This document shows positions 60,859-62,039 of a DNA stretch of 64,000 nt, in pieces; within the stretch, counting starts at the first letter, position 1, and every line of letters begins with the position of its first letter. The notes beneath the pieces were generated by a model that made no database searches, was not told the origin of the DNA, and was given only the letters and a program-made list of their open reading frames with translations. The stretch spans positions 2,212,137 to 2,276,136 of the forward strand of contig NZ_CP046640.1 in NCBI RefSeq assembly GCF_017751145.1, written 5' to 3'. This DNA comes from Iocasia fonsfrigidae (GTDB lineage: Bacteria; Bacillota; Halanaerobiia; Halanaerobiales; DTU029). A program made the position numbers and the translations under genes.

Positions 60859-60923
60859 AGTCTCCACCCCTTATTTTTCACATAGGTGATTCAGCTAAAT
60901 CATATAGTCACAAAAAAACAAAT

Positions 60924-61232
60924 TGGCTTCGCCACCCAGAGTTAATCAAGTACATCAGCTTTCTTAACTCAAACTATTTATTACATAGTTAATCAATAAA
61001 TTATTAACCAGACAAATATATTTGTTGGACGACTCTAGAAATTGTCTTGAGGCATGGACGCCGAAAGAAAATTTCTCGACAGTAAGCGTAAGCAGGACGC
61101 TGTAGCGCAACCTTAATTTTCTTGTACGCTCTGCTTAGATGCGGAGTGCCTGCGGTACACGACAAGGGAAACAAATATATTTGTCGGTCTTTAAAGTTAT
61201 CTACAATTTCTAAATCGCATAGTTTCCTGGTA
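60924..61232. repeat. Repeat element copy A, about 309 bases
   Basis: Begins TGGCTTCG(C)CACCCAG and ends at TTTCCTGGTA. It shares its order of blocks with copy B on the other side of yraN, in the same orientation. The best block, 61107-61185, matches 61916-61994 over 79 bases with three visible differences. It holds a strong hairpin (CTTGTACGCTCTGC with GCGGAGT...GTACACGACAAG) and is flanked by two ACAAATATATTTGT palindromes (61014-61027 and 61171-61184). No protein is supported. The rest of the gap 60859-61256 appears empty. Confidence 0.85.
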
Positions 61233-61256
61233 TACCTAAACAAAATGATTTAGCCA

Positions 61257-61634
61257 TTAAAAAGCATTCTCAAAATGTTCAATCTCTACCTGCCCCTTTT
61301 TCAGCATAATACTTATAACATCAAATCTGAGCTCCATATCCAATCCCCTGTTAATTGATAAATAATATAGAGCAACTTTTTTGATTTTATCCTGTTTTCG
61401 ATAGTCAACAGCTGCCTGGGGTGGTCCATAATTAATATTGCGTCTAGTCTTAACCTCCACAAATATCAATATGTCATTCTGGCAAATAATCAAATCAATC
61501 TCACCAAGTTTACAGGAATAATTCTGTTCAAGTATCTGATAACCACTATTTCTCAAATATTTAGAGGCCTGTTTTTCCCCCCAATCACCGAGCTCTTTCC
61601 TGCTCATAGCTTGAAGAAACCTATTATTTTCCAT
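61257..61634 (-). CDS. yraN: YraN/UPF0102-family nuclease-like protein
   Basis: 125 residues with the PD-(D/E)XK nuclease-like core of UPF0102: LGDWGEKQASKYLRNSGYQIL start, GEIDLIICQNDILIFVEVKTR in short blocks, where Asp, Glu and Lys form the presumed active site, then FDVISIM. The family is linked to DNA uptake or repair but has no settled function. ATG with GGGGTG seven bases upstream. Flanked on both sides by the two copies of the repeat, which separates it from comM, its usual neighbour. Confidence 0.9.
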   Translation of the reverse strand: MENNRFLQAMSRKELGDWGEKQASKYLRNSGYQILEQNYSCKLGEIDLIICQNDILIFVEVKTRRNINYGPPQAAVDYRKQDKIKKVALYYLSINRGLDMELRFDVISIMLKKGQVEIEHFENAF

Positions 61635-61674
61635 AAAAGAACACCCCGTTAATGAACAACTTTAAAGAATAAAC

Positions 61675-62039
61675 TGGCTTCGCTACCCAGACTTAATCAA
61701 TAATTATTAATTTTTACTTAGGAATATTTTTTACACAAAGTTAACTAGTTTTAATAATCTAGACAGATATATTTATTGTACGACTCTAGAAATTATCCGT
61801 AGGCAGGAGCTTGGCCTCGACGGCCTGATACTGACTCGACCATGCGTAATAAAAAGAAGAGTCAATGAGCCGGAGGAGAATTTCTCGACATTAAGCGAAG
61901 GTAGGACACCGCAGTGCAACCTTAATTTTCTCGTACGCTCTGCTTAGATGCGGAGTGCCTGCGGTACACGACAAGGAAAACAAATATATCTGTCAGCCTT
62001 CAAAGTTATCCACAATTTCAAAATCACAATTTCCTGGTA
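61675..62039. repeat. Repeat element copy B, about 365 bases
   Basis: Same orientation and block order as copy A. Shared blocks include TGGCTTCGCTACCCAG, ACGACTCTAGAAATT (61780-61794; 61029-61043 in A) and the 79-base block 61916-61994. B has about 55 extra bases around 61800-61880, themselves able to fold (GACTC/GAGTC, GGCC-rich arms). The remaining sequence of the gap, 61635-61674 and 62040-62171, shows only an AT-rich weak inverted repeat near 62130. Confidence 0.85.

Follow-up and report, generated by a model that had tools for sequence, protein, structure and literature searches.

Putative gene-less IS91-type elements carrying a structured module beside a yraN-like gene of Iocasia fonsfrigidae

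The repeat pair around a yraN-like gene of Iocasia fonsfrigidae is a real, mobile and nested element. The joint explanation that we consider probable is a non-autonomous IS91-family element carrying a separately evolving structured module of ~130 nt, with the reservation that transposition was not observed. In the window, which is the whole stretch of DNA analysed (64,000 nt, C1:2212137-2276136 of a single-contig genome of 3,926,493 bp), the outer layer of each copy is ~310-370 bp long, contains no gene and has ends that resemble those of the IS91 family (rolling-circle, HUH Y2). The inner module of ~130 nt is a three-way junction built from an outer stem of 16-17 bp and two hairpins whose loops read A(N)GGA, and appears to be previously undescribed.

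Two nested copies beside yraN

The yraN gene is flanked by two non-coding copies in the same orientation. In a repeat search, the copies shared a 160-nt direct repeat of 88% identity together with 52-, 37- and 27-nt blocks whose order was kept, in agreement with a preliminary description of two direct non-coding copies with a common block order. The description had placed two elements correctly but drawn them slightly too short, and their extents were corrected to about 60916-61230 and 61668-62037. The 79-base block that it had singled out (61107-61185 and 61916-61994, about three differences) differs at exactly three positions (T/C, G/A and T/C), and a 37-mer out of this block has 0.00 expected occurrences in shuffles. 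The block is conserved, but its prominence comes mainly from a 50-bp module inserted in both copies, not from a role as the functional centre. The ~55 extra foldable bases noticed in copy B correspond to a discrete 65-nt module (61807-61871), which is found at the same site in other copies. The features of the locus are listed below. The strand of the whole elements is given in the transposase sense, the folding module of copy A lies on the plus strand, and the ends of both elements are approximate (for copy A, to a few bases).

Between the copies
61257-61634, minus strand: yraN-like gene, ORF of 125 aa, outside both elements

Copy A
60916..61230, minus strand: whole putative gene-less IS91-type element; ends match the IS91 transposase element
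60916..60937, minus strand: oriIS-type end with hairpin GGGTGGCGAAGCCAATTTGTTT, GTTC decayed (oriIS scan, C1:2273070; 93.9% to the consensus end)
61011..61027, plus strand: outer stem, 5' arm GACAAATATATTTGTTG (fold and covariation)
61037..61076, plus strand: hairpin 1, loop ATGGAC at 61054-61059 (fold and covariation)
61086..61108, plus strand: hairpin 2, loop AGGAC at 61094-61098 (fold and covariation)
61110..61159, plus strand: nested 50-bp module with the GCTCTGC..GCGGAGT hairpin (present or absent at the same site elsewhere; tandem repeats in genome G012)
61170..61185, plus strand: outer stem, 3' arm AACAAATATATTTGTC (fold and covariation)
61193..61228, minus strand: terIS-type end, AGGAAACTATGCGATTTAGAAATTGTAGATAACTTT in the transposase sense (93% to the consensus end; also beside transposase genes)

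Copy B
61668..62037, minus strand: whole putative gene-less IS91-type element
61668..61688, minus strand: oriIS-type end, hairpin around TGGCTTCGCTA, target tetranucleotide decayed (91.2% to the consensus end)
61762..61778, plus strand: outer stem, 5' arm GACAGATATATTTATTG
61787..61886, plus strand: hairpin 1, enlarged by the nested 65-nt module
61807..61871, plus strand: nested 65-nt module in the hairpin-1 loop (94% to the module in other copies)
61895..61918, plus strand: hairpin 2, GCGAAGGTAGGACACCGCAGTGCA, loop AGGAC
61919..61968, plus strand: nested 50-bp module (96% to consensus)
61979..61994, plus strand: outer stem, 3' arm AACAAATATATCTGTC (94% complementary to 61762-61777)
61998..62035, minus strand: terIS-type end with TGTGGATAA (87.5% to the consensus end)

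The long hairpin around GCTCTGC...GCGGAGT had been predicted and was found in the sequence. The ACAAATATATTTGT palindromes proposed at both ends of copy A are also present, but the outer pair of a copy anneals together as one 16-17 bp stem. A suggested pairing of 61031-61045 with 61203-61216 is unused in the conserved fold; the arm at 61031-61045 has its partner at 61070-61076, whereas 61193-61228 forms one of the transposon ends.

Dozens of dispersed matches were already obtained with copy A as the query, and a covariance model search of the genome for further copies found the structured core 94 times. An immobile, decayed local duplication around yraN would fit two adjacent direct copies with drifted flanks. 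However, the 94 dispersed copies, together with copies in other genera, refute it by number, and we regard it as virtually eliminated. Between the two natures offered for the pair in the preliminary description, the mobile non-autonomous MITE-like reading was right and its partner transposase family can be named as IS91. The duplicated structured RNA gene was too narrow a view, as the structured part is a mobile module common to many elements.

Ends, partner transposase and orientation of the outer layer

The outer element is bounded by GAACAAAATGGC(TTC)GCCACCC at one side and AAAGTTATCCACAATTTnAAAATnGCATAGTTTCCT at the other. We observed the AAAGTTATCCACAATTTnAAAATnGCATAGTTTCCT end, nearly identical, at eight sites adjoining a 456-aa ORF, which belongs to an IS91 transposase element with 8 near-identical full-length copies in the chromosome. 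The full element is arranged as AGGAAATTATGTG..TTTGTGGATAACTT, then the transposase, then GGGTGGCGTAGCCATTTTGTTC. In profile searches, the 456-aa transposase matched PF04986 (Y2_Tnp, E 6.7e-36) and PF14319 (Zn_Tnp_IS91), and scored 286.7 bits against the NCBIfam IS91 model NF033538 (cut-off 125). The motifs PHIHAL and YIGRY are found in its translation, and the partner is of the HUH Y2 type. Related transposases with the same end pair occur in the Halanaerobium-like genomes G026, G030 and G036, and both ends of the window elements match these relatives as well as the 8 own copies. Because the ends are shared with transposase elements, we assign the window elements to this IS91 subfamily as gene-less members, an assignment that is solid. 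As a miniature element derived from IS91, the outer layer retains both ends. It also exists without the inner module (e.g. C1:2631673-2631846), and then has a single ACAAATATATTTGT palindrome. GTTC comes after the oriIS hairpin at about 43 of the 58 scanned sites and is decayed in both window copies.

Taken together with their partner, the elements resemble the IS91 family (IS91, IS801 and ISCR; PMC3189936, PMC5714925) in having an HUH Y2 transposase with PF04986, PF14319 and NF033538, unlike ends, an ori hairpin 3' of the transposase gene, a GTTC/GAAC tetranucleotide and no target duplication. IS91 transposes from its ori end to ter through a single-strand intermediate and makes no target duplication (PMC5714925), so that a search for target-site duplications is inapplicable to the outer layer. 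IS801 uses GAAC-like tetranucleotide targets and forms miniature derivatives (PMC3189936). Short gene-less derivatives that move in trans are also known in this family (PMC3189936, PMC5714925). However, the IS801 miniatures are one-ended IS fragments of unrelated sizes, whereas the window-type elements keep both ends, carry a structured module in place of their interior and reach many tens of copies. With MITEs they share the short gene-less form and the many dispersed intergenic copies bearing the ends of an autonomous transposon, but they are of rolling-circle type, with true ends lacking terminal inverted repeats and an outer layer lacking target duplication. The classical criteria of terminal-inverted-repeat MITEs are unmet: the two outer ends are unlike each other and the inverted repeats are internal. 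Within an incomplete coverage of the literature, we found no earlier account of IS91 MITEs, of an IS91 strand bias or of these sequences.

We infer that transposition occurs in trans. The IS91 transposase from the eight full-length copies would act on the oriIS hairpin and the terIS end, move a single strand and join it next to GTTC. Three further observations concern the IS91-type elements. The full-length element occurs as tandem head-to-tail pairs with one common GTTC junction (C1:493.6-496.8 kb and 3358.6-3361.8 kb). The Halobacteroidaceae-like genomes G052 and G053 contain short gene-less elements that lack the module, have the same type of terIS end plus a hairpin, and directly abut terminators. 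The TTATCCACA in the terIS end looks like a DnaA box, but its conservation beside the transposase gene is that of a transposon end.

With dnaA at C1:1, all outer-element loci (44/44) were observed in one orientation relative to replication (p = 1e-13), and they change strand between 1.95 and 2.08 Mb, close to the half-way point. The oriIS-like matches agreed with replication in 54/58 cases, the other four resembling chance matches inside genes, and the terIS-like matches in 36/37, the inverted exception being C1:778886. These counts rest on ~295 kb of sequence surrounding known copies and not on the full chromosome. As for the module, 86 of its 94 copies followed replication; seven of the 8 exceptions are sister-type modules inverted in their host and the eighth lies near the switch point. 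In genome G048 the module has no replichore bias (24/47). The bias is most simply read as a property of the IS91 layer, produced by entry into the lagging-strand template. This route is inferred in the presence of a strong gene-strand bias: flanking genes are leading-strand in 116/124 cases, so the effects of replication and gene orientation are hard to separate. Entry into a template that is single-stranded during replication would fit the uniform orientation.

Insertion beside the terminators of leading-strand genes, and not replication, could produce the same uniformity. Many elements abut terminators, and the leading-strand excess of the flanking genes is in line with such insertion. The loci that separate the two orientations are one with both neighbours lagging and six with one. 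At the former (C1:1453260), however, the element still follows replication, and the six mixed loci behave likewise. The 44/44 agreement exceeds the gene bias, only mildly, and terminator insertion stays an unlikely explanation that cannot be set aside entirely. Entry through the lagging-strand template has a counterpart in the lagging-strand rule known for IS200/IS605 elements, and a uniform replichore orientation would extend that rule to the IS91 family, which, as ISCR, spreads resistance genes. The outer layer is a natural test of target-strand choice by rolling-circle IS91 transposons.

Fold and distribution of the inner module

The inner module starts and stops with a ACAAATATATTTGT arm and may hold optional nested modules at fixed sites, one of 65 nt in the hairpin-1 loop and one of 50 nt at a TGCA-like site that follows hairpin 2. 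A sister module type has different stems and the same loops. The compensatory changes for which a covariance model had been suggested were found in abundance, and the covariation is very strong. Among 100 distinct copies, 95.2% of cells pair and double changes occur in 37/38 pairs. The covariation score was 0.747 for these copies against 0.227 in shuffles, and 0.910 against 0.236 for 33 diverse copies; none of 500 shuffles attained the score, and slid alignments dropped to 0.08-0.18. Both alignments were fitted to the model and hence lean towards the structure. An independent unfitted MAFFT/RNAalifold alignment still gave double changes in 30/38 pairs. The seed alignment A1 was typed from printed copies and has one wrong base in row 14; the sequences of A2 and A3 were taken directly from the loci.

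The constant parts of the fold are the junction strands CGACU.U, AGUGAG and GAACGnCAAG and the hairpin tips GnA-stem-A(n)GGAn-stem-GnA, two per module. The A(N)GGA loops were kept in 93/100 copies for hairpin 1 and in about 94/100 for hairpin 2, and the stems change freely. G-U pairs exceed A-C mismatches by 205 to 24 (116 to 24 without two doubtful junction pairs; 33 to 9 in the diverse set), indicating that one strand is the folding strand and that selection acts on the fold of that strand. A comparison with the Rfam covariance models left the window without a match, although E values up to 5 were admitted, and was equally negative for the module at 14 diverse loci with E up to 1.

Two kinds of nested module deserve mention. 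A third one (~55 nt, TTAGAAGCACGGCTTGAAGC...) lies in the hairpin-1 loop of sister-type copies at C1:778608-778846, C1:1479673-1479862 and C1:3328502-3328680. The 50-bp module occurs alone in G012, as a fourfold head-to-tail tandem array between purine-biosynthesis genes, and in G003, inserted into another hairpin. The TGCA-like repeats at its flanks suggest that it is a very small mobile unit of its own.

The module was observed in 14/59 Halanaerobiia genomes, G048 included, and in 15/399 sampled genomes of the phylum, five of these 15 lying outside the class. Its hosts have IS91 ends in G038 and G050 and are terminal-inverted-repeat MITEs in G039 and G325; in G325 it also sits in a 1.6-kb ISAs1 element with five near-identical copies. 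In other Bacillota the stems are completely rewritten yet still pair, inside unrelated mobile elements. The same ~130-nt module has probably been acquired by several unrelated IS and MITE families across Bacillota. Its structure is conserved to an unusual degree. Transposons that are unrelated to one another share it, in AT-rich halophiles as well as in a Bacillota genome that is GC-rich, and Rfam has no entry for it. Searched plasmids, phages and viral contigs contained no relatives. A scan of genome contigs was negative as well, but it missed even G048-type sequence, so that near genomes are probably lacking from it and the result does not show absence. In other genomes the module lies in varying orientations to the genes beside it, and a simple UTR role is therefore not favoured. 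Genomes G026 (L253:8395-8527) and G030 (L252:9805-9938) each have a single copy at the same place, in sense, upstream of a sugar ABC-transporter operon, and this copy is possibly a co-opted 5' leader.

Candidate roles and partners of the module

We rank first, with moderate confidence, a strand-specific structured passenger that is probably an RNA. Its function is inferred, and no transcript, promoter or terminator has been shown. Module types differ in how they are oriented to the host element and to replication, and RNA is therefore inferred to be the simplest strand-specific carrier, although the wobble asymmetry would also arise for a specific ssDNA strand. Most likely the module works as a folded nucleic acid with strand specificity, in the simplest case an RNA made by read-through from neighbouring genes.

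A purely ssDNA structure that aids the host element, through transposase recognition, protection of the intermediate or strand choice, would agree with the strand-specific fold and with the position of the module, which was always in or adjoining a mobile element where the context was read. However, its orientation relative to the IS91 ends varies, with the sister type inverted, so that the strand that folds and the strand that is transferred do not always coincide. The host transposases are unrelated (IS91, ISAs1, TIR MITEs), and IS91-type elements without the module exist. We hold this reading to be possible but not likely.

The module could also be a transposable element in its own right, entering hairpins or palindromes with a ~14-bp target duplication that yields the outer stem. 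Several unrelated hosts and the single ACAAATATATTTGT of empty outer elements, against two in filled ones, speak for such a movement. However, deletion between direct repeats also gives the empty form and the 14-bp duplication cannot be distinguished from it. In other genomes the outer stems covary as stems without being self-palindromic. We found no dedicated enzyme, and Y1/RAYT transposases are absent from five carriers. This makes self-transposition rather doubtful.

As to a partner for a passenger RNA, a speculative proposal is that the module is an undescribed Bacillota-wide mobile structured RNA in unrelated transposons, which binds a host RNA-binding factor through its paired A(N)GGA hairpins (CsrA where present). 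Identifying the factor that recognises the module would explain why mobile elements retain it. The narrower idea of a mobile CsrA-binding RNA, in which two CANGGANG-type hairpin loops ~35 nt apart could bridge a CsrA dimer, is less likely still. The loops fit the CsrA/RsmE loop consensus and are kept while the stems vary, and csrA is found in 13/14 module-bearing genomes of the class versus 41/59 overall. However, in two genomes outside the class, G097 (96% complete, at least 8 copies) and G138 (94%), the loops persist although no csrA scores above the cut-off, which disfavours CsrA as a universal partner; G022, with a weak module match, also has no csrA, and most copies in the own genome are antisense to neighbouring genes. 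The hairpins with A(N)GGA loops are like those of CsrA-binding RNAs of the CsrB/RsmZ type, but the module has a long outer stem, sits in mobile elements and occurs in genomes without csrA. The proximity of module and csrA in G026 and G030 (7-9 kb) looked coincidental, the immediate context being the sugar-transport operon beside a flagellar region.

REP/BIME sequences with RAYT and GTAG-/CGTC-tagged palindromes (PMC3733652) were also compared. The likeness lies in imperfect intergenic hairpins and GNAG-like triplets at the hairpin feet, and one RAYT-like gene is present in this genome. The module differs in being a much larger three-way junction with a variable tetranucleotide, and the RAYT gene is not flanked by it. 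No Y1/RAYT match (PF01797) was obtained in the carriers G041, G097, G138, G274 and G359, which disfavours RAYT as a mobiliser or universal partner. The single RAYT-like Y1 transposase gene (C1:3694602-3695360) adjoins a SNF2-like helicase gene and has no obvious REP flanks. The elements presumably resemble BOX and ERIC, modular repeats with nested insertions, in their modular and structured make-up and in the fixed sites at which optional internal modules sit; they differ in sequence and taxa, and the mobilising family of their outer layer is identified here.
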